Shown: positions 2,951 through 39,023 of the stretch, piece by piece | Position numbering within the stretch: position 1 is the stretch's first letter | Layout of the letters: every line of letters begins with the position of its first letter | NCBI RefSeq assembly: GCF_900609055.1 | Contig: NZ_UXAW01000058.1 | Location: 1-64,000, forward strand | DNA length: 64,000 nucleotides | Reading direction: 5' to 3' | From: Pseudogemmobacter humi | Lineage (GTDB): Bacteria > Pseudomonadota > Alphaproteobacteria > Rhodobacterales > Rhodobacteraceae | The notes under the pieces: generated by a model | Seen by the model: only the letters and a program-made list of their open reading frames with translations | Databases searched by the model: none | What the model was told of the DNA's origin: nothing | Program-made: the position numbers and the translations under genes

Positions 2951-3943
2951 TCAGCCGCCGAACCGCTCCGACCAGCAGGGCTGCGGATCTCCGGGCAGCG
3001 GGCGGGCGAGGAACACCGCACGGGCGATGGCGCGGGCGAGGCAGGTCGCGGCGCCATGGCCGATCTGGAATGTGTCGGTCAGCGGATCCTGCATCTCACG
3101 CGCCCCGGTCGCCGCCGCGAAAACCAGATCGCCGTCGAGCGGCGTATGCGACGGCAGGATCGCCCGCGCCATGCCGTCATGCGCGGCCACCGCCATCCGC
3201 AGCGCCTGCGCCTTGTCCAGCCGGGCGTCGGTGGCGACCACGGCGATGGTGGTGGCCTCGCCCTGGCGTTTCAGCGGCAGCGGTGCGTCCGGCGGGGCCA
3301 TGCGCGGCGCTGGCCCGAGGCCGCCGAACTCCGCCCCTTCCTCGAACGGCGCGGCGTGAAACCACGGCCCGTCCCCCGCGGTCACGCTGCCGAGCGCGTT
3401 CACCGCCACCAGCGCGCCCACGGTGATCCCCGACGGCAGCACCGCCGAGGCGGAACCGAGGCCGCCTTTCCAGTGCCCGGTCATCGCTCCGAACCCCGCT
3501 CCCGCGCTGCCGAGGCCGAACCCGGGCGCCGCGGCCGCCAGCGCGGCGGCGCCGAGCGCGGGATAGGGGGACGCCGACCAGCCCTTGTCGCCGCCGTTCA
3601 GCAGGTCGAACAGGATCGCGCCCGGCACGATGGGCACGCGCTGATCGCCCACCGCAAAGCCCCGCCCCATGGCGCGAAGCCCCTGGGCCACGCCGGAACA
3701 GGCGTCCAGCCCGAAGGCCGATCCGCCCGACAGCACCAGCGCATCCACCTGTTGCACCAGCCGGTCGGGGGCCAGCAGGTCGGTCTCGCGGGTGCCCGGC
3801 GCGCCGCCCATCACATGCACCGCCGCGGTGAAGGGCCGTGCGGCCGTCAGCACCGTCACGCCAGAGCGCAGCCCGGCGTCATGGGCATTGCCGACCACAA
3901 GGCCGGCGACATCGGTGATCAGGTTGCGCGGGCCGGGCCGCAT
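2951..3943 (-). CDS. P1 family peptidase (DmpA/S58-like, self-processing Ntn hydrolase)
   Basis: A 330-residue member of the peptidase S58/P1 family (L-aminopeptidase/D-esterase group). Family marks include the N-terminal block NLITDVAGLVVGNAHD, the glycine-rich GGSAFGLDAC segment and VNALGSVTAGD in the second half; in the family the serine of that last segment becomes the N-terminal nucleophile after autocleavage at the preceding Gly-Ser bond. The start is taken at 3943 (MRPGPRNLITD) because the 64 upstream codons are arginine-rich shadow sequence. The gene faces moaE and is divergent from the L,D-transpeptidase; an inverted repeat at 4041-4059 lies between the two starts. Substrate unknown. 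Confidence 0.85.
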   Translation of the reverse strand: MRPGPRNLITDVAGLVVGNAHDAGLRSGVTVLTAARPFTAAVHVMGGAPGTRETDLLAPDRLVQQVDALVLSGGSAFGLDACSGVAQGLRAMGRGFAVGDQRVPIVPGAILFDLLNGGDKGWSASPYPALGAAALAAAAPGFGLGSAGAGFGAMTGHWKGGLGSASAVLPSGITVGALVAVNALGSVTAGDGPWFHAAPFEEGAEFGGLGPAPRMAPPDAPLPLKRQGEATTIAVVATDARLDKAQALRMAVAAHDGMARAILPSHTPLDGDLVFAAATGAREMQDPLTDTFQIGHGAATCLARAIARAVFLARPLPGDPQPCWSERFGG

Positions 3944-6497: not shown

Positions 6498-7333
6498 CCC
6501 GCATCGTTCACGGCAAGGCGGAGCTGCGCGACCTGGTGCGGTCCTGGCGCGCGGAAGGCACGCTGATCGGTGTGGTGCCCACGATGGGTGCGCTGCATGA
6601 GGGGCATCTGTCGCTTGCCCGCCGCGCGCGCGCGGAATGCGGAAGGGTGATCACCACGATCTTCGTCAACCCGCGCCAGTTCAACAACCCCGACGACCTC
6701 AGCCGTTATCCCCGCACGCTGGAAAGCGATGCGGCGCTCTTGCGCCAGGTGCCGGTGGACGTGATCTTCGCCCCCGATGTCGATGAGGTCTATCCCGAGG
6801 GATTCGCGACCACCGTCTCGGTGGGCGGCGTGTCCGAGCCGCTGGAGGGCCGGATGCGCCCGGGCCATTTCGACGGGGTGGCGACGGTGGTGACCAAGCT
6901 CTTCGGCATGACCGAGGCGCAGCGCGGCTATTTCGGCCAGAAGGACTGGCAGCAGTTGCAAGTCGTCAGCCGGCTGGTCAGGGACCTGAACCTGCCGGTC
7001 GAGATCGTCGGCTGCGAGACCGTGCGCGAGGCGGACGGGCTGGCGATGTCCTCGCGCAACGTCCGGCTGACGCCCGCGGGCCGTGCCACGGCGCCGGTGC
7101 TCTGCGCGGCGATCTCGGCGGCGGCGGCGGATATCCGGGCCGGGCAGTCCGACCGGATGGCGATCCGCGAGGCGGCCGAAACCATGCGCCGCGCCGGTTT
7201 CGAGCGGGTGGAATATATCGAGCTGCGCGACGCGGAAACGCTGATGCCTTCGGACGATCCCCGGCGCCCGCGCCGGATGCTGGCCGCGGCCTGGCTCGAC
7301 GGAGTGCGGCTGATCGACAATATCCCGGTGTAA
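6494..7333 (+). CDS. panC: Pantothenate synthetase (pantoate--beta-alanine ligase)
   Basis: ATP-dependent ligase joining pantoate and beta-alanine. The 279-residue protein has the nucleotide-binding HIGH-like block [13 protein letters not shown], the segment [23 protein letters not shown] and MSSRN, all diagnostic for the family. It overlaps panB by four bases. Downstream lies a composite palindromic repeat (7340-7429) that could end the transcript. Confidence 0.96.
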
Positions 7334-7339
7334 GAAGAA

Positions 7340-7429
7340 GGGGGCCCTGCCCCCGCCGCTCCTGCGGAGCGACTCCCCCGGGGTATTTCTATCAGGGTGA
7401 ATGGGATTTCTCCCTGATAGAAATACCCC
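7340..7429. repeat. Composite palindromic repeat, copy 1 (full, probable terminator)
   Basis: Three consecutive hairpins: GGGGGC-CCT-GCCCCC (7340-7354), CGCTCC-TGC-GGAGCG (7357-7371), and a perfect 18-bp palindrome arm pair at 7380-7397 and 7412-7429 built on GGGGTATTTCTATCAGGG. The gap to the next gene is 307 bases (7334-7640); the remaining 200 bases show no gene and no clear sigma-70 promoter. It follows panC directly and may end that operon. The same architecture recurs elsewhere in the window. Confidence 0.8.
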
Positions 7430-7640
7430 CGCCGGAGGCACGCCCCGGTTGGCGCGCGAGCGCCGGAGGCGAGGCAAAAGGCTTGCGGCGCAGCCGCGCG
7501 ATTTCCTGGCCGCGCATCGGGCATAGGGAATTCACACCTTGCAAGCCCATGCCGGCGCAACCACTTTCCCGTTTCGGCGGGCAGGCGTTTTGCGTAACAT
7601 CGCCGGGGTGATTGCAGGTTGACCGGCCACGGAGGGCGCG

Positions 7641-8711
7641 ATGGCGGATTTCGAGACACAGATCCTTGAGAGCGAAAAGCAGGTCCGCGCGGCTCAGGAG
7701 AAGATCACCGCCCTGACCGCGGTGATCGAAACCGCCGGGATCAAGGCCGAACAGGGCATCGGGATCGACGTGGAAAACGCCACGCTTGAAGACGTGCACA
7801 GGCACACCGATGTGATGAACGCCAATATCGCCGAGCTGATCATGGGGCTCGACGATGTGACGGCGGCGTTTTCCAGGGATTTCGACGAGATGCGCTCGAA
7901 AACCGGCTGGGAGAGCTTCGTCGGCATCTTCTCGTCCGGGAAATCCGAATCCCTGCGGCAGGAGAGGCTGCGCGCCGCCTCGATCGACGACAAATTGCAG
8001 GATCTGATCTCGAAATCCGACGTGATCGTGAAGCTGTTGCAGGGCCAGCTTGATCTGCTGAACGGGCAGAAGGCGAAGGTCGAGGCCAATCTCTCCGGCA
8101 CGCTCACCGACCGCGAGGACACCGTGGCCGCTCTGGAAGCGGTGCGCCGCGAGATCGCCGCGATGGACCCGCGGCTGATCGAGCTGGAGAACCGGATCGC
8201 CGTGGAAACCGACGCGGCCGCGCGCACCAAGCTGGAGACCGAACTGGCCGGGCTGAATGCGAAGCACAATGCGCTGGTGCAGGACGAACAGGTCAAGCTG
8301 GCCCGCAGCCAGACGCTGGAGCGTTATATCGAGAAGGGCAAGACCTGGGTCGACAGCCTGACGAACCAGGCCGCGACCCAGCTGGTGCTGATCAACAAGC
8401 TGCAAACCGACACCAGGCAGCGGGTGGTGCTTTATGACGCGCTGACCTCGTCGCTGAAGACCGCGCAGCAGCAGGATGTGGCGCACCGCATCAACGAGAT
8501 CGGGGTCAAGACCGACCAGGAGGCCCAGGCGGCGATGGCCGCCATCGGCTCGGCCACCAATGCGAAAATGGCCGACATGCTGGAAGCGCATGAGGGCCAT
8601 ATGGTCTTTGCCCGCAAGATCCTTGAGGAAAAGGCCAAAGCCGACGAGCGTTTCGCCCGCCGTTTCGCCGCAATAGTCGAGAAACACGACAAGAACGCCT
8701 ATGGGGGATGA
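7641..8711 (+). CDS. Coiled-coil protein of unknown function, first gene of an 8-gene cluster
   Basis: A 356-residue, soluble, almost wholly helical protein. Long heptad-like stretches run through residues about 95-270 (for example KLETELAGLNAKHNALVQD), with no signal peptide, membrane segment or catalytic motif. The overall plan, a long coiled coil followed by a TQLVLINKLQTDTRQRV-type helix, is reminiscent of TelA/KlaA-type tellurite-resistance proteins, but I cannot confirm homology by eye. The next gene starts 3 bases after the stop, so this opens an operon ending near 15280. It may be a structural partner or cargo of the AAA+ ATPase encoded 1.5 kb downstream. Confidence 0.7.
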   Translation: MADFETQILESEKQVRAAQEKITALTAVIETAGIKAEQGIGIDVENATLEDVHRHTDVMNANIAELIMGLDDVTAAFSRDFDEMRSKTGWESFVGIFSSGKSESLRQERLRAASIDDKLQDLISKSDVIVKLLQGQLDLLNGQKAKVEANLSGTLTDREDTVAALEAVRREIAAMDPRLIELENRIAVETDAAARTKLETELAGLNAKHNALVQDEQVKLARSQTLERYIEKGKTWVDSLTNQAATQLVLINKLQTDTRQRVVLYDALTSSLKTAQQQDVAHRINEIGVKTDQEAQAAMAAIGSATNAKMADMLEAHEGHMVFARKILEEKAKADERFARRFAAIVEKHDKNAYGG

Positions 8712-8714
8712 TGG

Positions 8715-8939
8715 GTGGCCGGGCTTCTGAGCCGGGCTTTTCCGCCCGGGCTTCTTCTGATCGCGCTCGGCATCGTGCTCATCGGCCTTGGCGCGGTGCT
8801 TGACCATTACGACCTGCACCGCGCCCAGTGGTATCTGGGCGAGGGCGGGCTGGTGGCGCTCAGCCTCGGCGGGGTGATGGCCGTGGTGGCGGTGATCGCG
8901 CTTTTGCTGACGCCCGCCGGGGGGGACGGCGATGGCTGA
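8715..8939 (+). CDS. Small two-helix membrane protein
   Basis: A 74-residue protein starting at GTG 8715, 3 bases after the previous stop. Two hydrophobic segments are clear: residues about 10-28 (GLLLIALGIVLIGLGAVL) and 44-66 (LVALSLGGVMAVVAVIALLL), joined by a short charged loop. It overlaps the next gene by 8 bases, indicating translational coupling. Probably a membrane anchor for the cluster; no family recognised. Confidence 0.7.
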   Translation: MAGLLSRAFPPGLLLIALGIVLIGLGAVLDHYDLHRAQWYLGEGGLVALSLGGVMAVVAVIALLLTPAGGDGDG

Positions 8940-10059
8940 GAACGGCGTCAAAGAGGCGCTGGTCAGCGACCATGCCGCGCTTTACGATCCGAATGTGGCG
9001 CAACGCTATTTCGCGAAATTCGGCAGGATCGGCGGCTGTTTCGCCCGGATCGCGGCGGAGCTGGAGAAAGAGAACCGCCTGAACCGGACCGAAACCCGGA
9101 TCCTCGGCCAGTATCTCAACGCGCTGATCGGCACCTTCCGGGCGCTGAACCACAAATATCTGATGACCGGCCGCGCCGAGGGCGCTCCGGGCCTGACCAT
9201 CGACCGTCACGAATCCGGCTTTCCGGTGGCGCAGGAACTGCTGATGATGGCGGTGGACGCCCAGCAGGCGGCGAAACATCTGGCCGGTATGCCCTCGGTG
9301 GCGGAACTGCGTGACCGGATGGTGCGCATCATCGTGGGCGAGCTGAAAGTGCCCACCGCGTTGCAATTCGCGCTCAGCCAGCGGCTTTATTACGAGGCTT
9401 TGCAGGCCGGGGGCCTGTTCCAGGCCCGCAACGGCCCGGATGTGCAATGGCTGGGCCAGGAGGGCGAGCGGCGGCGCTTCCTGCTGCACTGGGCGGTCTG
9501 GGATGCCCAGGTCAACCTGCCGGTGGTCTGGCTGATGGAGGTGCTTGACAGCGGCAAGCGTCCGCTGCCCGAGGACGCATACCGCTGGCCCGGGATGCAG
9601 CAGAAGCTGCTGGCGCAGTCGCTCGCGGGGCTGAAGCTGGTGACGGTCGCCACCGGATTCGACAAGGATTTCGACGAGGCGAGCCCGGTCCGGCTGCGCC
9701 GCATCACGCTCGGCCCGATGTATTCCGCCGGCTTCACCCTGCAATCGGGGCCGATCTCGCGGGTGCTGGAAGATGCGCGCGCGCCCGAGGGCGAGGACTG
9801 GGCGCTGGTCTGGACCATCGAGGATCTGGTCTCGGACCGCGAAGAGATGGTGAAGGACGGCTGGTTCTCGTCGCGCCGCCGCCAGGTGTTCCGGCTTGAC
9901 CCGCTGACCGGGGCGGACACCGGCGCCACCCGGCTGGAACGGATGATCGTGCTGCCCGAGCGGCCCTATCAGGTGCTGGTGGAGCAGGATCCGCCCGGTT
10001 TGCGCGGGATCAGGAAATTCGTGGTGGGGGCGGGGGGGCGCCTCATTCCCGGCGCCTGA
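8932..10059 (+). CDS. Conserved hypothetical protein in ATPase cluster
   Basis: A 375-residue soluble protein with no signal peptide, membrane segment or known motif that I recognise. The N-terminal third is helical (LNRTETRILGQYLNALIGTF), the C-terminal part mixed alpha/beta ending in a strand-rich region (RQVFRLDPLTGADTG). It overlaps the small membrane protein gene by 8 bases and is separated from the ATPase gene by 132 bases containing a composite repeat, so a fraction of transcripts may stop here. Confidence 0.7.
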   Translation: MAENGVKEALVSDHAALYDPNVAQRYFAKFGRIGGCFARIAAELEKENRLNRTETRILGQYLNALIGTFRALNHKYLMTGRAEGAPGLTIDRHESGFPVAQELLMMAVDAQQAAKHLAGMPSVAELRDRMVRIIVGELKVPTALQFALSQRLYYEALQAGGLFQARNGPDVQWLGQEGERRRFLLHWAVWDAQVNLPVVWLMEVLDSGKRPLPEDAYRWPGMQQKLLAQSLAGLKLVTVATGFDKDFDEASPVRLRRITLGPMYSAGFTLQSGPISRVLEDARAPEGEDWALVWTIEDLVSDREEMVKDGWFSSRRRQVFRLDPLTGADTGATRLERMIVLPERPYQVLVEQDPPGLRGIRKFVVGAGGRLIPGA

Positions 10060-10064
10060 GAACG

Positions 10065-10141
10065 CCGGGGCTTTGCCCCGGACCCCAGGGTATTTAGGTC
10101 AGGATGAAAGCAAAGGGGTTTTCATCCTGACCCAAATACCC
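10065..10141. repeat. Composite palindromic repeat, copy 2 (inside the ATPase cluster)
   Basis: A GC hairpin CCGGGGC-TTT-GCCCCGG (10065-10081) followed by a 22-base arm pair (10088-10109 and 10120-10141), GGGTATTTAGGTCAGGATGA against its complement with one mismatch, loop of 10 bases. It separates the third and fourth genes of the cluster and could attenuate transcription or stabilise the upstream message. Confidence 0.8.
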
Positions 10142-10191
10142 CCGCCGGAGGCGCAGGTTTGAGCCGGAAGATTTGGCCGGAAAGGTAAGCG

Positions 10192-12120
10192 ATGGTTGCG
10201 CGCGATACGATGGAACTGAAAGAAGAGGCGATCCGCGCGCAATATGAGGCGGCGCTCGGGCTGATCTCGGGCTTCGATCACGCGCCGCGGCTGGCGAAAC
10301 CTCTGGAGGCGGCGCCGGTGGCGGAACGCTCGCCCGGGGTGGGTGCCCGGCCGCGGTTCCGCTCGACCGTGCCGGGGATGGCGGCGCATGTCACCGCGCG
10401 CCCTGGCAGCGTGCGGCTGGTCGAGCGGATCGGCGGGCTCTCGGATGGGCTGGTCTCGCCGGAACAGGCGGCGGCGCTGAACGTCTTGCGCCGGGCCGTC
10501 GCGGTGGCGCTTGCCATGGGCGAGACTTTCGCCGCGCAGTCGGGGCTGGCCGAACTGAAGCGCGCCAATCTGGAGGGGCGGATCCCCGAAGGGAAGCGCG
10601 CCGAATTTGGCGAGCTGTTGCAGGCCGAGGCGCTGGTCGTGCTCTTCACCTTCGCCAATGCGAGCGCCTTTCTGATCGCGCCGCATCTGGGCAGCCAGAG
10701 CGTCGCGATCGGCGAGGTCGGGGAGGTGCTGACCGACAACGCGCCGCTCGCCTTGCAGGGCGCGTTGTGGGAACTCGACCAGGACATCGCGGTGCTGGCC
10801 TCGGACGACGCCCGCCTCGTCGCCACGATCTCGGCCTTTGCCGAGGCGCTGATGGCCAAGGTCGCGCTTCGGGCCGAGGGTGTGGCGCGGGTCTCGGCTT
10901 TCACCCAGGGCTCGTGGAAGGTCGAGGCCGATCAGCTGACCATCGCCGGGTTCCGGCCCGCGCGGGCCGCGAAAGGCGGCCAGATCGCCATGGCCTTCAA
11001 GAAACCGCATGAGGTGGTGGGCAACCATATCGCCAAATACCAGAGCCTGCGGCTGGCGAAGATGCTGATGGCCTATGATTTCGAGCGCCGGCTGAACCCC
11101 TTCGCCGAACTCGGTGGCTTCATCTTCACCTTCATGGGCGACGGCAAGCCCGGCACCGGCAAGACCACGCTGATCCAGATGATGGCGGGGCTGCTCAACG
11201 ACTACTGTCAGGCGGCGGGCTATCCGTTCCGCTACCAGAACTTTTCCATCGACCAGATCGACAGCTATCAGGGCAAATCGGGCCAGAACGCCAAGGCCTT
11301 CATCGACGCGGTGCTCGATCCCGGGGTGATCGGGTTCGGGACCATCGACGACATCGACCAGGTGGCCGGGAAACGCGGTGACCGGCAGTCCTCGGCCGGT
11401 CAGCAGGAGGTGACGGCGGTCTTCATGCAGGCCTTCGCCGGGGCGGGCACGGTGGTGCGCGGCAACTGCACTTTCGGGATGTTCAGTAACTACCCCGAGA
11501 ACGTCGACGACGCGCTTCGCCAGCGCGCCGGCGCCCGCTTCCTGGTCGACGGGCCGCAGACGCGCGAGGATTACATCGACATCCTCTCGCTGCTGCTGGG
11601 CAGGAACCATTCGATCCCGCTCGGCGATCACGATCTTTTCGCCGCGCAGGAGATCAGGAAGGCCGTCGCGGCCAGTTACGAGGGCCATTCCCGCCCGCAC
11701 GAATCCGGCCTGATAAAGGTCTGGCAGGAGGTGGAGGGGCTGCTCGGCCCGCTGAACACGCTGGCGAAGATCGGCGCCTATCTCAAGGCGATCCAAGAGG
11801 CCGACGAGCGTTTCACCGGCCGGGCGATCAGGAACATCACCGACGCGGTGAAGGTCCGGGCGATGGATTTCGAGCTGCCGGATGAGTGGATGGAGGACCC
11901 GGATCTGTTCCTGTTCAAACCCTACGACACCAAGCTGGCGATGATCCGCGATCTGATGACGCCGGTCACGGTGGAGATGGTGATCCAGGAGGTCAACCGC
12001 TACGCCGATTCCGAATTCCGCTATGCCGACAATTCGGATGAGGTTGCGATTCAGGGAATGGTGCGCGACTTCGGCCGCCAGGAAGAGGCGAAGCGGCGCT
12101 ATCTGGAGGGCAAGGGGTGA
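10192..12120 (+). CDS. AAA+ ATPase with unique N-terminal domain
   Basis: A 642-residue soluble ATPase. The Walker A loop GDGKPGTGKTTL is at about residues 316-327, Walker B IGFGTIDDID at about 380-388, a sensor-1-like asparagine in GMFSNYPENVDD near 433, and an arginine-finger candidate in LRQRAGARF near 445-450. The arrangement resembles the MoxR/CDC48-type AAA+ class, suggesting a hexameric remodelling machine. The first 300 residues match no domain that I recognise and probably bind substrate or partner proteins; the last 120 residues are helical. The stop overlaps the next gene by GTGA. It is the only obvious energy-coupled component of the cluster. Confidence 0.85.
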   Translation: MVARDTMELKEEAIRAQYEAALGLISGFDHAPRLAKPLEAAPVAERSPGVGARPRFRSTVPGMAAHVTARPGSVRLVERIGGLSDGLVSPEQAAALNVLRRAVAVALAMGETFAAQSGLAELKRANLEGRIPEGKRAEFGELLQAEALVVLFTFANASAFLIAPHLGSQSVAIGEVGEVLTDNAPLALQGALWELDQDIAVLASDDARLVATISAFAEALMAKVALRAEGVARVSAFTQGSWKVEADQLTIAGFRPARAAKGGQIAMAFKKPHEVVGNHIAKYQSLRLAKMLMAYDFERRLNPFAELGGFIFTFMGDGKPGTGKTTLIQMMAGLLNDYCQAAGYPFRYQNFSIDQIDSYQGKSGQNAKAFIDAVLDPGVIGFGTIDDIDQVAGKRGDRQSSAGQQEVTAVFMQAFAGAGTVVRGNCTFGMFSNYPENVDDALRQRAGARFLVDGPQTREDYIDILSLLLGRNHSIPLGDHDLFAAQEIRKAVAASYEGHSRPHESGLIKVWQEVEGLLGPLNTLAKIGAYLKAIQEADERFTGRAIRNITDAVKVRAMDFELPDEWMEDPDLFLFKPYDTKLAMIRDLMTPVTVEMVIQEVNRYADSEFRYADNSDEVAIQGMVRDFGRQEEAKRRYLEGKG

Positions 12121-12947
12121 GCGAAGAGGCGGAATGGCGCTTCTGGCGACCGGGAAACCCTACCCTCTGGGGTGTTTTGTTCAGTATTGCACTGGCAGGT
12201 GTCACCATCTGGCTGGCCAGGCGAGACTGGTGCTATAGTTCCGACAGCGGTGAACTGATCTGCATGGTCAAATGGCAGGCTTTTCTCGCCTCATCCCCCA
12301 ACGAGGTGGGGGACGCTCTCGCCGGCTTCGCGGGCGTTCTGGCCTTCATCTGGGTTGCGGTGACGGTTGCCCTCCAGTCTGCGCAATTACGTGCGCAGCG
12401 CGAGGAGTTGCGGCTGACCAGAAAAGAGATGGAAGAGCAGCGCAAAGCGACACAGGATATGGCGCGATCCCTGGCGCGAGAGGCCGCAATCTTCGAGGAT
12501 GAACAACTGCGCCGTAATCAGGCCGAGTCCTGGGCCGTCGTTCAGGAACTCATCAACACGTTCCGCCGTCGTTTCCCTGTCGATCCTGAATATCGTCCGA
12601 TCAAATGGCTCGTAAAAGGCAAAGATCCGAGGGTGTTGGGCTACGAGAGAGGAGATACCAACCTTCGGGACCTGCGCGATGACGAATTCATGTCACGTGC
12701 CCTTGGGGCCGTGCGTAAGCATTGTCATTCCCAGGTAATGAAAGCGATGCGGAGCGGAGAATCCATGGAGCGGACAGGCGACGTGCTTCTGGCCGAATTG
12801 CACGACCTGATCCGGCGGATGCTTGGGCATACAGGGCAGTTGGCAGGGGCCCGAAGGATCTTTCTGGAAGCCTGCAAACTCAGCGAATGGGATATGGTTC
12901 TGACCGATCTCCGGAGTGCCGGAGCGCCGGCTGGGGGAGGAAAATGA
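12117..12947 (+). CDS. Low-GC membrane-anchored coiled-coil protein, likely inserted
   Basis: A 276-residue protein with a hydrophobic segment near residues 17-35 and a second at about 65-87 (AGFAGVLAFIWVAVTVAL), followed by a coiled coil (LRAQREELRLTRKEMEEQ) and a helical C-terminal half. That plan, two helices then an AQREE-type coiled coil, is common in small accessory proteins of phage-defence and stress islands, though I cannot name a family. Base composition is visibly lower than in its neighbours (stretches around 50-52 % GC, against about 70 % nearby) with rarer codons such as GTA. Starts with GTG overlapping the ATPase stop and ends overlapping the next start. Confidence 0.65.
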   Translation: MSEEAEWRFWRPGNPTLWGVLFSIALAGVTIWLARRDWCYSSDSGELICMVKWQAFLASSPNEVGDALAGFAGVLAFIWVAVTVALQSAQLRAQREELRLTRKEMEEQRKATQDMARSLAREAAIFEDEQLRRNQAESWAVVQELINTFRRRFPVDPEYRPIKWLVKGKDPRVLGYERGDTNLRDLRDDEFMSRALGAVRKHCHSQVMKAMRSGESMERTGDVLLAELHDLIRRMLGHTGQLAGARRIFLEACKLSEWDMVLTDLRSAGAPAGGGK

Positions 12948-14338
12948 AACGCCTCATCACCCGCGGCCTGATGTTTGGCAATCTGATCGAGGTTTCCTCG
13001 CCGCAGCTTGTCGCGCGGTATAACCGGGCGCTCAGGATGCTCATCGGGCGAGAGACGGCGCTGAGTGATTTCCATATCGATCTGTCGGGCTATTCGCCCG
13101 AGATCGGCGATGAATTCGGCGATCATTTCTATCTCAACCCGAACGGGGCGAACCGGCAGTTCATCCTGCTGACCACGGCGCAGAAAGAGGCGCCGCTTCT
13201 GAACATCCGCTTTTCCACCTCGCGCTCGATCCTGACCCGGTTCATCGAGGCGAACGAGGCGCAGCTTTTCGCGCTGACCGCCCGCGATGTGGTGGCGGGC
13301 GAGTTGCAGGGCTCGGTCTATGCGGTGGACAGCCCGGCGAAACTGCTGGATCTGCGGCGCGTCACGGTCGAGGCAGATACGATCGGCGGCCATGTGGCGG
13401 ATGCCGGAAAGCTCGCGGGGCTGATCGAACGCTTCCGGCGCGAGCCCGACGGCTGGCGCGACGAGGCGCTGATCGCCGGGATGATCCAGCTTGCGCGCCG
13501 CACCGGCGATGTGACGCGGGTGCCGATCCATCTGCCCGCGATGAGTTTCGAGCAGCCGGATTTCTGGACCAGCCTGTTCGGCGGGCTCTATGTCTTTCAG
13601 GGCCAGAAATTCCCCGCGGTGATCTCGCGCGGGGGCGTGACGGGGCTTGGCCAGATGCCGGTCGGCCAGGTGATGGATTTCACCCACCGCAACCATATCG
13701 CCGACTGGCTGGAGAGGAACGGCCTCGTCGAGCCCATCGTCCAGGCGCGCGGCACCAACGGGGGGGCGATCCTGCGCCAGAAGATGGATTTCATCCTGCT
13801 GGATGCCGCCGACAGCCTGGGGATCGATGTGGGCGACGCGCGGCGCACCGAGTTGCGCAAGGTGGCCTACAAGCTCGGCCCGGCGCTGCCGGACGAATTC
13901 CTCGGCCTCGCCGCGATGCTGCGGTGGGTCGAGGAGGCCGGGCCCTGGCCGCAGATCTCCAGCGAGCATCCGGCCTATTTCTACACTCTGCGCGGGCGGC
14001 CGGGGCCGGACCGCGATCTGGTCAACATGCTGCTCTCGGAACTGTCACCGATGGATGTGCGCCAGCTTTTCATCACCCATAAAGAGCGGTTCTACGAGGA
14101 TTATCGCGGCTGGAGCGAGAAGAAGCGCGAATATGTCGCCGATTTCCTCGCCCGCGAATATCAGGTCGACAAGGAAGGCGCGCGCGAGGCCCTGTTCGGA
14201 CCAGAGCCGAAGATGGACGAACTGGCCCGCCCCGACATGCGTGAAGGGCCGAAGCCAACCCGCGAATTGCGTGATATCGTCGGCCCCTGGGGCGCCATGC
14301 GCCCGGGACAGGGGCGCGCGCAGGGGGAGCGACGATGA
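12944..14338 (+). CDS. Conserved hypothetical protein, 464 aa
   Basis: Soluble protein of unknown family. The ATG at 12944 has a GGAGG site and overlaps the previous stop (ATGA); upstream codons in frame belong to the preceding gene's shadow. No signal peptide, membrane segment or catalytic motif is evident; sequence is rich in aromatic and acidic residues with blocks such as LFITHKERFYEDYRGWSEKK that look like a compact helical C-terminal domain. GC content returns to about 70 %, like the ATPase, so this gene probably belongs to the original cluster and the low-GC gene was inserted in front of it. Confidence 0.7.
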   Translation: MKRLITRGLMFGNLIEVSSPQLVARYNRALRMLIGRETALSDFHIDLSGYSPEIGDEFGDHFYLNPNGANRQFILLTTAQKEAPLLNIRFSTSRSILTRFIEANEAQLFALTARDVVAGELQGSVYAVDSPAKLLDLRRVTVEADTIGGHVADAGKLAGLIERFRREPDGWRDEALIAGMIQLARRTGDVTRVPIHLPAMSFEQPDFWTSLFGGLYVFQGQKFPAVISRGGVTGLGQMPVGQVMDFTHRNHIADWLERNGLVEPIVQARGTNGGAILRQKMDFILLDAADSLGIDVGDARRTELRKVAYKLGPALPDEFLGLAAMLRWVEEAGPWPQISSEHPAYFYTLRGRPGPDRDLVNMLLSELSPMDVRQLFITHKERFYEDYRGWSEKKREYVADFLAREYQVDKEGAREALFGPEPKMDELARPDMREGPKPTRELRDIVGPWGAMRPGQGRAQGERR

Positions 14339-14604
14339 TCATCAACTGGGTGAGGCTGGCCTTCTTCATGCTGATCGGGCTGACCGTGGCCTATCTGCTG
14401 GCCTCGATCTATTCGCGCTCGGTCCGTCGCGAGAAGCTGGAGAAGCACTGGGACGCCAAAGGGCTGGAGGGCGACCGCACGGCCTTTATCGAGGCCGGGA
14501 TGCGTGGCTATGAAAAGGGGCTGAAACGGCGGCTGTTGTGGCTTATCTATATCATCCCCATGGTCGCCTTCACCGCGATCTTCTTCTATGTGAACTGGTA
14601 CTGA
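14335..14604 (+). CDS. Small two-helix membrane protein with charged loop
   Basis: An 89-residue protein with two membrane segments, residues about 5-25 (WVRLAFFMLIGLTVAYLLAS) and 66-86 (LLWLIYIIPMVAFTAIFFYV), separated by a charged loop of about 40 residues facing the cytoplasm. Similar small proteins in Rhodobacterales are often labelled as efflux-pump fragments without experimental support. Overlaps the previous gene by ATGA and is followed by the DUF1523-like gene. Confidence 0.75.
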   Translation: MIINWVRLAFFMLIGLTVAYLLASIYSRSVRREKLEKHWDAKGLEGDRTAFIEAGMRGYEKGLKRRLLWLIYIIPMVAFTAIFFYVNWY

Positions 14605-14608
14605 GCCG

Positions 14609-15280
14609 ATGCGATATGTGAAATGGACCTTCTGGCTGCTCATCTTCGTCCTGGTCGGGGGCTTTCTGCACTACACCCTGCCGCAGCATGACATCGTGCG
14701 GATCGTGGGGATCGAGAATCGCCGTATCGACATCGGCGAGAATTCGATCTTCTGGTCGCGTGCCGAGGTGGGGATGACCGATTCCACCAGCCGCGACGTG
14801 TTCTTCATCAATGCCGTCTATCCGAACGGCAAGACGATGGAATACCGCAACGAGGATACCGGCTGGGGCTGGCCGCCCTATTTCAAGATCGACAGTTTCG
14901 GGCTTCAGACCCGGACGAAGGATCTGGTCTCGACCGCTTCGGATCCGGTCTGGGTCCAGGTCACCCATTACGGCTGGCGCAACAAGTTCTTCACCATCTT
15001 CCCCAATGCGGTCTCGGTGAAACGGGTGGCGGGGCCGGATGTCACGGTGATTCCCTGGGTGTCGATCATCGTCCTGGTGACGCTGGCCTTCATCCTGTTC
15101 ATGATCCGCCGGATGTGGATGCAGTTCCGCGAGCGGATGGTGGATCCGGCCATGGTGCGGGCGGAACAGGCGTTCGACCGGGTGGATGCGCGCGCCGATG
15201 AGGTGCGGGCGGGCGCGCGCGGGCTCTGGGGCCGGTTCCGTTCCTGGCTCGACAGCTGGAAATCGAAGCCGAAACGCTGA
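14609..15280 (+). CDS. DUF1523-like membrane protein
   Basis: A 223-residue protein with an N-terminal membrane segment (residues about 6-26), a soluble domain of about 120 residues containing the DUF1523-type blocks IVRIVGIENRR and EDTGWGWPPYFKID, and a second membrane segment near 148-170, followed by a basic amphipathic tail. The soluble part is expected to lie outside the cytoplasm. This is the last gene of the cluster, 4 bases after its neighbour; a triple hairpin follows at once. Confidence 0.8.
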   Translation: MRYVKWTFWLLIFVLVGGFLHYTLPQHDIVRIVGIENRRIDIGENSIFWSRAEVGMTDSTSRDVFFINAVYPNGKTMEYRNEDTGWGWPPYFKIDSFGLQTRTKDLVSTASDPVWVQVTHYGWRNKFFTIFPNAVSVKRVAGPDVTVIPWVSIIVLVTLAFILFMIRRMWMQFRERMVDPAMVRAEQAFDRVDARADEVRAGARGLWGRFRSWLDSWKSKPKR

Positions 15281-35224: not shown

Positions 35225-36213
35225 AATCCCGTCTTCTCGCCGCCGCGCTCGCGCTTGGCCTTGCCGCCCCCGCCAGCGCCCAGGATGCGATCCTGAACGT
35301 CTCTTACGACATCGCCCGCGAGCTTTTCGCCGAGATCAACCCGGCCTTTGCCGCCAAATGGAAGGCTGACACCGGCCGCGACGTGACTGTCGACCAGTCG
35401 CATGGCGGATCCTCGGCCCAGGCCCGCGCCATTCTGGAAGGGCTTCCGGCTGATGTGGTCACCTTCAACCAGGTGACCGATATCGACGTGCTGGCCGAGG
35501 GCGGGCTGGTCGATCCGAACTGGCGCGAGGCATTCCCGAACGGCGCCTCGCCCTATTACTCGCTGCCCGCCTTCCTCGTCCGTGCAGACAATCCGAAAGG
35601 CATCAGGGACTGGGACGATCTGGTGCGCGAGGATGTGAAGGTGGTGTTCCCGAACCCGAAAACCTCGGGCAATGCGCGCTACACCTATCTGGCGGCCTAT
35701 GCTTTCGCGCTGGACAAGAACGGCGGCGACCAGGCGGCGGCGCAGGACTTCGTGAAGCAATTGTTCGCCAATGTGCCGGTGTTCGACCAGGGCGGCCGCG
35801 CCGCCACCGTCACCTTCGCCGAGAAGGAGATCGGCGATGTGCTGATCACGTTCGAGGCCGAAACCGGCGGTATCGCCGCACAATATGCCGACAAGAACTT
35901 CGTCCGCGTCACGCCGTCGCTGTCGCTCTACGCCGAATTCCCGGTGGCGGTGGTCAGCGAGAATGCCGCGAAGCGCGGCACCGAGGAGGTGTCGAAAGCC
36001 TATCTCGATTTCCTCTACTCGCCCGAGGGCCAGCGCATCCTCGCCACCCGCTTCAACCGCGTGCATGACGAGGCGGTGAAGGCCGAATTCGCCGACAGCT
36101 TCCCCGAGCTGAAGCTGGTGACGGTGGAAGAGGTGTTCGGCGGCTGGGACAAGGTGAAGTCCGAGCATTTCGCTGAGGGCGCGATCCTCGACCAGGTGTT
36201 CGTGAACCAATGA
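35221..36213 (+). CDS. sbp: Sulfate-binding periplasmic protein
   Basis: Solute-binding protein of the sulfate importer, 330 residues, translated from a GTG overlapping the cysA stop. Signal peptide SRLLAAALALGLAAPASAQD, then the family blocks ILNVSYDIARELFAEIN and QSHGGSSAQARAILEGL, which contribute to sulfate binding, and PNPKTSGNARYTYLAAYAF. Either Sbp (sulfate) or CysP (thiosulfate) specificity is possible. Sits between the ATPase and the two permease genes. Confidence 0.94.
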   Translation: MKSRLLAAALALGLAAPASAQDAILNVSYDIARELFAEINPAFAAKWKADTGRDVTVDQSHGGSSAQARAILEGLPADVVTFNQVTDIDVLAEGGLVDPNWREAFPNGASPYYSLPAFLVRADNPKGIRDWDDLVREDVKVVFPNPKTSGNARYTYLAAYAFALDKNGGDQAAAQDFVKQLFANVPVFDQGGRAATVTFAEKEIGDVLITFEAETGGIAAQYADKNFVRVTPSLSLYAEFPVAVVSENAAKRGTEEVSKAYLDFLYSPEGQRILATRFNRVHDEAVKAEFADSFPELKLVTVEEVFGGWDKVKSEHFAEGAILDQVFVNQ

Positions 36214-37067
36214 CCGCCGCTCCGGTTCCCGCTTCGGCCCGGCGGTCGAAGCGGGTTCTTCCAGGATTCAGCCTGACCATGGGCGTGACGCTGAGTTATC
36301 TCGGCGTCATCGTCCTGTTGCCGGTCATAGCCCTGGTGCTGAAAGGGGCCGAGATCGGCCCGGCCCGGTTCTGGGCCATCACCACCGCGCCGCGCACGCT
36401 TGCCGCTTTGCAACTGACGCTGCTCGCGGCGACCATGGCGACGATCTTCAACGCGCTTTACGGCCTCCTGATGGCCTGGGTGCTGGTGCGCTACGAGTTT
36501 CCCGGCAAGCGTATCCTTGACGCGCTCGTTGATATCCCCTTCGCGCTGCCCACCGCCGTTGCGGGGCTGGCGCTTTCGGCTTTGTTCGCGGCGAACGGCT
36601 GGTATGGCGCGATTCTGGAGCCGATGGGCCTGCCGGTCGTCTTCACCATCTGGGGGGTGGCGATCGCGATGTCCTTCACCTCGATCCCCTTCGTGATCCG
36701 CGCGGTGCAGCCGGTGCTGGAGGATCTGGATCCGCAGTATGAGCAGGCGGCGCGCACGCTGGGCGCCGGGCGGTTCACCATCTTCGCCCGGGTGATCTTT
36801 CCGGCGATCCTGCCCGCCTTCCTCGTCGGCGTGACGCTGTCCTTCGCACGATCCTTGGGCGAATTCGGCGCGGTGGTGTTCATCGCGGGCAACCTGCCGA
36901 TGAAGACCGAGATCGCCTCGCTTCTGGCGGTGATCCGGCTGGAGGAATACGATTACAACGGCGCCGCGGTGATCGCGCTGGTGCTCTTGCTGATCGCGCT
37001 GCTGCTTCTGGTGGTGTCGAACCTGCTCCAGGCCCGCGCCCTGCGCTACAAGGGGAAAACCGCATGA
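36210..37067 (+). CDS. cysT: Sulfate ABC transporter permease CysT
   Basis: Inner-membrane permease of 285 residues with about six transmembrane segments and the EAA coupling loop EQAARTLGAGRFTIFARVIF in the C-terminal half, which contacts CysA. The N-terminus is basic and cytoplasmic (SARRSKRVLPGFSLTMG). It overlaps both neighbours by ATGA, showing tight coupling with sbp and cysW. Confidence 0.94.
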   Translation: MTAAPVPASARRSKRVLPGFSLTMGVTLSYLGVIVLLPVIALVLKGAEIGPARFWAITTAPRTLAALQLTLLAATMATIFNALYGLLMAWVLVRYEFPGKRILDALVDIPFALPTAVAGLALSALFAANGWYGAILEPMGLPVVFTIWGVAIAMSFTSIPFVIRAVQPVLEDLDPQYEQAARTLGAGRFTIFARVIFPAILPAFLVGVTLSFARSLGEFGAVVFIAGNLPMKTEIASLLAVIRLEEYDYNGAAVIALVLLLIALLLLVVSNLLQARALRYKGKTA

Positions 37068-37900
37068 GCGCCCATGCCGATCCCGCCCCCGCCGCCCTGG
37101 CGCCGCGCGAATCGCGCCTGGTGCCGCGGCTGCTGATCGGGCTGGCGCTGCTGCTGACGGCCGTGTTCGTCGTGGTGCCGATGGCCTATATCTTCCATCG
37201 TGCTTTCGCCGCCGGATATGCGGTTTTCCTGACCAATATCACCGAGCCGAACACGCTGCATGCGATCTGGCTGACGGTGCTGACCGCGGTGATCGTCCTG
37301 CCGGTGAACATCGCCTTCGGCGTCGCGGCCGCCTGGGCCATCGCGCGTTTCACCTTCCCCGGGCGCAAGGCGCTTTTGGTGCTGATCGAGATCCCCTTCT
37401 CGATTTCGCCGATCATCGCCGGGATCTGTTACCTCTTGCTTTACGGCCGCAACGGGCTGATCGGGCCCTATCTGCTGGCGAACGACATCCAGATCCTGTT
37501 CGCGCTGCCGGGGATCGTGATGGTGACGATGTTCGTCACCGCCCCCTTCGTCGTGCGCGAGGTGCTGCCCCTGATGCAGGCGCAGGGCTCGGAACAGGAG
37601 CAGGCGGCGCTGACGCTTGGCGCCAGCGGCTGGCAGATCTTCCGCCGGGTGACGCTGCCGAACATCCGCTGGGCGCTGCTCTACGGCGCGGTTCTGTGCG
37701 GCGCGCGCGCGGTGGGCGAGTTCGGCGGCGTCTCGGTCGTGGCGGGCAAGATCCGTGGCCAGACCAATACGCTGCCGTTGCAGATCGAGCTCTTGTTCCA
37801 GGATCTGAACGTGACCGGCGCTTTTGCCGCCGCCTCGACCCTGACGCTGATCGCGCTGGTGGTGCTGGTTCTCAAGACGCTGATGGAATCGCGCCGCTGA
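37064..37900 (+). CDS. cysW: Sulfate ABC transporter permease CysW
   Basis: Second permease, 278 residues, with six predicted membrane segments and the coupling loop EQAALTLGASGWQIFRRVTL near residue 180. Starts four bases inside cysT (ATGA) and ends the sulfate operon. Together the four genes suffice for high-affinity sulfate uptake feeding cysteine synthesis; regulator genes are not in the window. Confidence 0.94.
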   Translation: MSAHADPAPAALAPRESRLVPRLLIGLALLLTAVFVVVPMAYIFHRAFAAGYAVFLTNITEPNTLHAIWLTVLTAVIVLPVNIAFGVAAAWAIARFTFPGRKALLVLIEIPFSISPIIAGICYLLLYGRNGLIGPYLLANDIQILFALPGIVMVTMFVTAPFVVREVLPLMQAQGSEQEQAALTLGASGWQIFRRVTLPNIRWALLYGAVLCGARAVGEFGGVSVVAGKIRGQTNTLPLQIELLFQDLNVTGAFAAASTLTLIALVVLVLKTLMESRR

Positions 37901-37991
37901 TCTGCGCAGGCGGCGGGGTCTCTCTGCCCGAATGTGCAGGTGCCCTGCGGCTGTGCCGCGCCTATGTTCGGGGCCGGAACAGGAGGGCGCG

Positions 37992-39023
37992 ATGGATCGG
38001 ATCGAACTGGGGCTGCACACGTTCGGCGATGTGACGCCGGATGCCAATGGCCAGCCGAAGCCGCAGCATGAGGTGCTGCGCGAGGTGGTGGAGCAGGGCG
38101 TTCTCGCCGATCAGGCGGGCGTCGATTTCATCGGCCTCGGCGAGCATCACCGGCCCGATTTCGCGATTTCCTCGCCCGAGGTGATTCTCGGCGTCCTCGC
38201 CGGGCGCACCTCGCGCATCCGGTTGGGCACCGCGGTCACGGTGCTGTCGACCGACGATCCGGTGCGGGTGTTCCAGCGGTTTTCCACGCTGAACGCCGTC
38301 TCGGGCGGCCGGGCCGAGCCGATCCTCGGGCGCGGTTCCTTCACCGAAAGCTATCCGCTCTTCGGCTTCGACATGGCGGAGTATGATCTCCTGTTCGAGG
38401 AAAGGCTCGACCTCTTCGCCCGGCTCCTGCGCGAGGAACGTGTGACCTGGACGGGCGAGACCCGCAGCGCGCTGACCGATCAGGCGGTTTACCCGCCGCT
38501 GGCGCCCGGCGGCATGGTCACCTGGGTCGGCGTCGGCGGTAGCCCGGAATCGGTGGTCCGGGTGGTGCGCCGCGATCTGCGGCTGATGCTGGCGATCATC
38601 GGCGGCGATGCGCGGCGCTTTGTGCCCTATATCGACCTCTACCGCCGCGCCGCGCAGGAACTCGGCCAGCCGCTGCGCCCGGTCGGTGTCCATTCCCCCG
38701 GCCATATCGCCGCGACGGACGAGGCGGCGCAGGAGCAGCTCTGGCCCGCCTATGCCGAGATGTTCGGCCGCCTCGGGCGCGAGCGCGGCTGGTCGCCGGT
38801 GACAAAGGACGGCTTCCTGAACGAAATCCGCCACGGCGCGCTTTATGTCGGCAGCCCGGAGACGGTGGCGCGCAAGATCGCCGCGACCGTGCGCGATCTG
38901 GGGCTGGAGCGGTTCGATCTGAAATACGCGACCGGGCCGATGCCGCACGCCACGATGATGGAGAGCATCCGGCTTTACGGCGAACAGGTCATGCCGATGG
39001 TGCGCGATCTGCTGGCGGGCTGA
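37992..39023 (+). CDS. LLM-class flavin-dependent oxidoreductase
   Basis: A 343-residue luciferase-like monooxygenase (TIM-barrel, FMNH2-dependent). Family marks: DFIGLGEHHRPDFAISSPEVIL in the N-terminal third, VRVFQRFSTLNAVSGGRAEPILGRGSF in the middle and VGSPETVARKIAATVRDLGL in the C-terminal part. Such proteins act on alkanesulfonates, nitrilotriacetate and other small organics. Proximity to the sulfate transporter hints at organosulfur use, but it stands alone 91 bases behind cysW and the substrate is inferred only. It ends directly against trhO (shared TGATCA). Confidence 0.85.
   Translation: MDRIELGLHTFGDVTPDANGQPKPQHEVLREVVEQGVLADQAGVDFIGLGEHHRPDFAISSPEVILGVLAGRTSRIRLGTAVTVLSTDDPVRVFQRFSTLNAVSGGRAEPILGRGSFTESYPLFGFDMAEYDLLFEERLDLFARLLREERVTWTGETRSALTDQAVYPPLAPGGMVTWVGVGGSPESVVRVVRRDLRLMLAIIGGDARRFVPYIDLYRRAAQELGQPLRPVGVHSPGHIAATDEAAQEQLWPAYAEMFGRLGRERGWSPVTKDGFLNEIRHGALYVGSPETVARKIAATVRDLGLERFDLKYATGPMPHATMMESIRLYGEQVMPMVRDLLAG

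Follow-up and report, generated by a model that had tools for sequence, protein, structure and literature searches.

What does a row of eight genes around an AAA ATPase do, when one of its positions changes content from genome to genome? This question is raised by positions 7641 to 15280 of a 64,000-nucleotide (nt) stretch of Pseudogemmobacter humi contig NZ_UXAW01000058.1, the whole of which is hereafter called the window. With a confidence that stops just short of even, we read the locus as a modular conflict system, most likely directed against phages, in which a fixed core is combined with a swappable effector position. The slot exists and turns over: the short genes that occupy it are unrelated from species to species, mostly share the strand of the operon and in many cases overlap their neighbours by 4 nt, and between close relatives the slot content is replaced while the flanks stay almost identical. 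In most lineages seen, a membrane protein, either DUF1523 or DUF2333, stands beside the core. From the fixed position, orientation and overlap of the cargo, the location of one of its families and the occurrence of effector-type domains, we infer that the AAA machine may control what the slot encodes.

The open reading frame (ORF) list and a direct reading of the bases agree that eight ORFs, all on the + strand, fill the interval. As the first-pass annotation had described, most are overlapping: six of the seven junctions overlap or almost touch, by 8 nt at g2/g3 and by 4 nt at g4/g5, g5/g6 and g6/g7, with spacings of 3 nt at g1/g2 and 4 nt at g7/g8. Lengths are in amino acids (aa), and counts of loci refer to those with a unique g4, 189 of the 198 gathered.

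7641..8711, + strand: g1, coiled-coil core protein, 356 aa, in 187 of 189 loci
8715..8939, + strand: g2, 74 aa, with two hydrophobic segments; occupies the smaller of the two variable positions, between g1 and g3
8932..10059, + strand: g3, core protein, 375 aa, without a family, in 188 of 189 loci
10060..10191, no strand: g3–g4 intergenic gap of 132 nt with a palindromic repeat inside, read directly
10192..12120, + strand: g4, AAA ATPase (PF00004) whose N-terminal part of about 300 aa belongs to no known family
12117..12947, + strand: g5, 276 aa, the slot cargo here, with two hydrophobic segments and a coiled coil
12121..12943, + strand: hypervariable slot, from the AAA stop to the DUF6638 start
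12944..14338, + strand: g6, DUF6638 core protein (PF20343), 464 aa, in 181 of 189 loci
14335..14604, + strand: g7, membrane protein, 89 aa, conserved in Rhodobacteraceae, in 16 of 17 relatives
14609..15280, + strand: g8, DUF1523 membrane protein (PF07509), 223 aa, in 179 of 189 loci

The distance from the AAA stop to the DUF6638 start varies from -4 to 1734 nt with a median of 658, whereas the g7 interval hardly varies in length (10–90% range, 274–295 nt). An operon-strand ORF of at least 60 aa is found in 156 of the 181 slots, and the 213 slot ORFs fall into 93 clusters, of which 67 are singletons and 26 recur in two or more loci. The cluster of g5 occupies 18 slots, the others being empty or filled by other genes, and g5 itself was matched in a single one of 17 relatives. 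A distant locus from another family (L222) lacks the slot altogether. The turnover is most visible among 18 non-independent locus pairs with an AAA identity of at least 95%: four pairs have similar slots (0.90–0.95), and in the other 14 the identity of the slot DNA drops to 0.41–0.58, close to a shuffled baseline (median 0.46, 5–95% range 0.36–0.53), with flanks at 0.89–0.95. Twelve of these 14 dissimilar pairs have no cargo cluster in common, and the remaining two have one small membrane gene in common and differ in the other slot gene.

The junctions of the slot are tidy. When the last slot ORF reaches 150 aa, it overlaps DUF6638 by 4 nt in 57 of 78 cases, where one third would be expected (p 8.5e-13); the start of a slot ORF at the AAA stop, seen in 30 of 69, is marginal (p 0.05). 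Of the 111 slots of 450 nt or more, 97 have their longer ORF in the orientation of the operon and 14 have it on the opposite strand. Long cargo (at least 150 aa; 92 ORFs in 86 loci) has a guanine-cytosine (GC) content on average 9.7 points under that of g4 and is lower in 75 of the 92; short cargo shows no clear drop (63 of 121). The second variable position, occupied here by g2, contains an ORF of at least 50 aa in 98 of 187 gaps between g1 and g3; these ORFs are small and unrelated to one another, the longest of each gap forming 68 clusters, and 82 of the 98 have at least one hydrophobic segment.

Around these two variable positions, g1, g3, g4, g6 and g8 form a core whose order and strand are kept in 177 of the 189 loci, so that gene order proved to be conserved across Rhodobacterales. 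Twelve loci depart from this order, four being partial and eight lacking g6. Four of the latter end within 127 nt of g4, at contig ends, and the other four (L050, L164, L180 and L214) show no g6 within 4.3–4.7 kb downstream; both loci without g1 start at a contig edge. All 17 relatives compared have the five core genes in order, and a single g7 cluster spans 74 of 81 loci; L222 has no g7. The suggestion that the eight genes make one system thus holds for the co-conserved core and fails for g5, an exchangeable passenger, and for g2 with its variable position.

The AAA gene was found in 165 of the 394 Rhodobacteraceae genomes searched, nearly every one of which represents a genus of its own, and in about two fifths of the sampled genera (164 of 393); a named scan gave at least 561 relatives among at least 588 pattern matches. 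The best 80 of these relatives come from records titled with genera that we take to belong to Rhodobacterales, or from unplaced alphaproteobacterial metagenome-assembled genomes. Of 289 genomes from the class, 5 have a DUF6638 match above cut-off, and of 289 from the phylum, 20 are matched by an AAA profile that includes distant members. Two genomes of the same genus have no AAA match. One (G003) is a broken assembly, in which the contig stops after g1 and g3; the other (G008, at 8700–9650 of L265) has lost g1 to g6 and retains g7 and the DUF1523 gene between the presumed panC and pheT, and these two genes may therefore have a role of their own. A further locus, at 3400–6760 of L256 (G367), is a deletion derivative made of a g1 fragment, a HEPN-like cargo gene, a DUF6638 fragment, g7 and g8.

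What the slot carries was approached with a Pfam scan of 20 of the 72 cluster representatives of at least 100 aa. Ten of the 20 exceeded a Pfam cut-off, which is not a rate because the representatives were picked by hand and are mostly the larger ones. The families are TIR_2 (also matched as the ThsB TIR), DUF559, Mrr_cat, DUF2971, RNase_T, PIN_10, DUF433, SLFN_AlbA_2, AbiJ_NTD4 and DUF3825; the DUF433 gene adjoins the PIN gene, and in one locus (L020) the TIR gene is the sole occupant of the slot. Matches to HATPase and HNH remained under their cut-offs, and eight of the 20 gave nothing above cut-off. PADLOC profiles added families named PDC, for phage defence candidate, as well as a HEPN-like end in L071. 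Among the genes that neighbour the operon, by comparison, the 25 Pfam families listed of 71 are mostly metabolic and transport families. The first-pass hint at phage defence, which had been drawn from a supposed likeness of g1 to TelA, does not survive by that route and regains substance from the defence- and toxin-type genes that fill the slot in other species. Small membrane proteins are also abundant, since 94 of the 213 slot ORFs are shorter than 150 aa and have two or more hydrophobic segments.

Two cargo families could be followed beyond single loci. The g5 family, present in 18 loci, has two hydrophobic segments and a coiled coil, its members being 20–38% identical to g5. Its profile gave 14 matches with an expectation value (E) below 1e-20 in the 394 genomes, all of them beside the AAA gene in the slot; 11 of the 14 were members of the profile, and the other three (G511, G458 and G480) lie in the slot too. 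The second family has an invariant R-x5-H motif, which we take to be HEPN-like, and seven of its nine rows are in the slot or a slot remnant, five of these seven having been profile members. Two solitary relatives of cargo genes, at 6794–7585 of L255 and 6049–6762 of L258, abut or overlap the 3' end of another ORF (pncB-like and parE-like), as if such genes tended to tailgate conserved ones.

In the favoured reading, the core proteins would form a membrane-anchored assembly, and the AAA ring would remodel this assembly on sensing infection or envelope damage. Translational coupling would ensure that the slot product is made along with the ATPase; the core would keep this product inactive and then release it. 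Once released, the product may cut nucleic acid, use up a nucleotide or make the membrane permeable. The slot genes themselves would be swapped when the conserved genes on either side undergo homologous recombination.

Almost as likely as cargo controlled by the AAA machine is a passive defence hotspot, to which we grant a substantial minority share of our belief. The core would then serve the envelope or a stress response in a way unrelated to the cargo, and the junction between g4 and g6 would be a tolerated, well-expressed landing site for cassettes of one or two genes that recombine through the flanks. This account stands so close because the core appears vertical, some slots are empty and some cargo is able to act alone. 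The divergence of the core tracks that of pheT (Pearson 0.95, Spearman 0.75, n=72, for identities to the window, a comparison with one reference gene from one viewpoint and not a tree), so the core is, to judge from sequence, inherited vertically and in a housekeeping-like manner. It persists beside the 25 slots of 181 that lack an ORF of at least 60 aa and measure -4 to 160 nt, four of them being a direct 4-nt overlap of the AAA and DUF6638 genes. Mrr, and PIN with DUF433, can act alone. Solitary relatives of two cargo families occur elsewhere: of the 24 genomes with a g5-family match, 10 have weaker ones outside the operon (E 4.7e-18 to 6e-4; L254 and L258–L261, the four looked at being solitary), and two of the nine rows of the R-x5-H family also lie outside it. 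Conserved flanks around defence content are also known from the core defence hotspots of Pseudomonas aeruginosa (PMC10250203). Other results likewise weigh against an effector-release system. The 18 close pairs reuse loci; one lone small membrane protein, with no assigned role, makes up the content of 43 of 181 slots; and g5 has no PADLOC match at E 1. The g7 interval has a GC content of 0.565 against 0.619 for g4, lower in 177 of 178, and because it is equally low the low GC of the slot is weakened as proof of foreign origin. An enrichment of cargo in PADLOC families over neighbouring genes was dropped, since the counts at E 1e-3 (28 families in 59 of the 72 cargo representatives, 13 GC-rich and unlikely-coding ones being excluded, against 18 in 59 of 90 recurrent neighbour clusters) do not separate. 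What a passive landing site accommodates less easily is that the strong g5-family matches, mostly profile members as they are, all sit in the slot; that the slot never exceeds 1734 nt; that its longer ORFs so regularly follow the operon strand with frequent 4-nt overlaps; and that an effector-type domain such as the TIR of L020 can be its single gene.

One kind of cargo probably has a different history. A 62–64-nt copy of the 5' end of g6 lies upstream of the DUF559 gene in four loci (L043, L051, L126 and L182), and a fifth remnant of DUF6638, visible as protein, is found in L189; from this, DUF559 cargo has the look of a mobile element whose insertion point is the start of DUF6638. Such remnants score 61–74, against 26 for the 99.8% point of the null. 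There are 11 DUF559 loci, and two records of Sinorhizobium also have DUF559 in this slot, where it is surrounded by repeat-like ORFs and, in one case, accompanied by an insertion sequence element. Taken together, this suggests a homing-type insertion that sets DUF559 apart from other cargo. That a selfish, Vsr-like DUF559 element homing to the 5' end of DUF6638 drives the slot as a whole and makes room for the other genes is improbable, as strong remnants occur in just five of the 158 slots of at least 150 nt, the majority of the 93 clusters are not DUF559 and many replacements retain clean 4-nt overlaps. We give hardly any credit to the idea that slot ORFs are mostly non-coding ORFs of high-GC DNA. 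The 13 representatives set aside do look non-coding, being short and GC-rich, and the opposite-strand ORFs in 14 of the longer slots would fit such an artefact; against it stand the Pfam matches in half of the chosen representatives, the 26 recurrent clusters and the lower GC of long cargo.

The core is not confined to Rhodobacteraceae. In a plasmid collection, ten records (four of Sinorhizobium, four of Vibrio, one of Shinella and one of Rhizobium) encode the AAA protein over at least 86% of its length; six were looked at, and the five that were profiled all have the core in order. The slot gene is absent from the Vibrio, Shinella and Rhizobium records, and in Sinorhizobium meliloti a DUF2333 gene lies downstream of the core (59 bits). 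A viral contig of 359 kb, IMGVR_UViG_3300035698_035310 (L267), carries DUF2333, g1, g3, g4 and DUF6638 in one row; short ORFs separate g3 from g4, and none stands between g4 and DUF6638. Its proteins are 50% (g1), 46% (g4) and 34% (g6) identical to those of the window, and its GC content is 35% in the stretch read. The assignment to a virus rests on the source collection and on the neighbouring genes: six of ten match a PHROG, including spanin-like and polymerase-exonuclease-like proteins, and seven of the eight relatives listed for the latter (of 67 records) are phages of 310–353 kb. Among the named phages of the collection g1 is absent and matches to g4 are confined to its AAA domain; another four scans of viral sequences gave this contig alone. 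A DUF2333 relative, 44% identical, is present in Pseudomonas phage Y11 (OQ572412.1, 49859–50695), a phage not among the g1 or g4 matches.

We regard as rather doubtful the wider proposal that g1, g3, g4 and DUF6638, with an exchangeable DUF1523 or DUF2333 partner, form an undescribed conflict engine used on both the phage and the host side. The bacterial version would carry swappable toxic effectors at a single exact position, and at least one giant virus would keep an empty slot, perhaps for remodelling membranes or blocking rival effectors.

The last gene was expected to be DUF1523-like, and g8 indeed belongs to that family (230 bits, cut-off 23). The 464-aa protein g6, first described as an unknown, turned out to be a DUF6638 member (662 bits, cut-off 27); Pfam assigns no function to this family or to DUF1523. 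The AAA domain of g4 (44 bits, cut-off 21, residues 318–451) is confirmed together with the family-less N-terminal part that the first-pass annotation had called novel; the MoxR label is not borne out, as no MoxR model of Pfam matched. The motifs GDGxPGTGKTT, DDID and ALRQR, which we take to be the Walker A, Walker B and arginine finger, are invariant in all 15 g4 sequences. No Pfam family exceeds its cut-off for g1, g2, g3, g5 or g7, and NCBIfam has no near-cut-off match for any of the eight. The matches in PADLOC and PHROGs fall on the AAA domain of g4 and, weakly, on g5 (phrog_9267, E 6e-5). A suspected resemblance of g5 to the putative abortive-infection family putAbiC is not supported, there being no such Pfam match at E 1. 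A simple hydropathy scan found two hydrophobic segments in each of g2, g5, g7 and g8, and the cluster is probably membrane-associated, as first proposed. The first gene, g1, is 72–93% identical across 14 relatives; its supposed likeness to TelA (PF05816), and with it a hint at tellurite, was discarded, as no Pfam TelA match appears at E 1, the hhalign probability is 0.3% (with shallow profiles, Neff, the effective number of sequences, being about 1.7, and 7 of 30 fetched TelA loci used) and a genuine TelA is encoded elsewhere in the genome.

The cluster keeps its standing as one without an assigned pathway, as neither profile searches of solved-structure sequences nor Foldseek gave anything convincing. 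The profile searches were fruitless for g1, g3, g6 and g8, and for g4 they found a weak relative in the PDB, mei-1 (E 0.0078). AlphaFold2 whole-chain models of g3 and g6 are confident, with a predicted local distance difference test (pLDDT) score of 93.6 and 85.7, and at E 1e-3 Foldseek found no PDB structure to match either of them, and nothing in the viral library to match the g3 model. In a second structural comparison all Z scores were below 5, and the alignment of g6 was mainly limited to one short helical stretch. For g3 residues about 178–338, the best VIA Z was 4.8 over about 120 residues (root-mean-square deviation 3.7–3.9); most of the best rows are urate oxidases, and further down come dihydroneopterin aldolases and GTP cyclohydrolase, all of them tunnelling-fold enzymes. 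This model-based likeness is a weak hint and no assignment, because fructose bisphosphatases share the top Z.

Several known systems invite comparison. The AAA core of g4 aligns weakly with TRIP13 (E 6.8e-4), and TRIP13/Pch2 with HORMA is the type III form of the cyclic-oligonucleotide-based anti-phage signalling system (CBASS); unlike the latter, the eight proteins include no HORMA or nucleotide cyclase detectable with Pfam, NCBIfam or PADLOC. The MoxR-vWA ternary conflict systems combine an AAA chaperone core with variable effectors (PMC7159879). The present locus shares the AAA core and exchangeable effectors, and differs in having no vWA or MoxR Pfam family at E 1 in the eight proteins, its other core proteins being unrelated by the searches made. 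Zorya has a membrane-anchored core with long coiled-coil parts and a separate effector gene (PMC11890865). A membrane-anchored core with a coiled coil and a separate effector gene is also predicted here, without any ZorA or ZorB PADLOC match at E 1 in the eight proteins. The P. aeruginosa hotspots have conserved flanks, changing defence content and a lower GC, cDHS1 being flanked by merR and DUF4011 (PMC10250203). Conserved flanks likewise enclose exchangeable defence-type content here, as judged from sequence and with the defence function of the cargo putative; unlike those hotspots, the slot spans at most 1734 nt, lies within an operon, holds few genes and has an AAA machine as its flanks.

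Searches of open-licence PubMed Central papers gave none that, by its listing, describes the operon or the slot; none of these papers mentions DUF6638, and the four that mention DUF1523 are, by title, not on this operon. If cargo and core cooperate, the locus would represent a modular immune platform that is new and occurs in about two fifths of the sampled Rhodobacteraceae genera, and the slot would be a list of candidate single-gene effectors, many without a family name. If it is a mere hotspot, it would still be unusually precise, operating below the scale of an operon. A simple rule for finding new defence genes would follow: look between the AAA gene and DUF6638. With the core present in a viral contig, in Vibrio and in Rhizobiaceae, DUF6638, DUF1523 and DUF2333 can be tested jointly for their function.

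Outside the eight genes, the neighbours on either side, which from their sequences we take to be panBC and pheT, have homologues that also flank the operon in several relatives. Two palindromic repeats of the window are alike, one at 7350–7440, after the presumed panC, and the other at 10060–10160, between g3 and g4 (gggtattt ... aaatacccccgccggaggc). Further downstream, positions 36001–38000 show a strong local AT skew of -0.238, unlike the remaining window.

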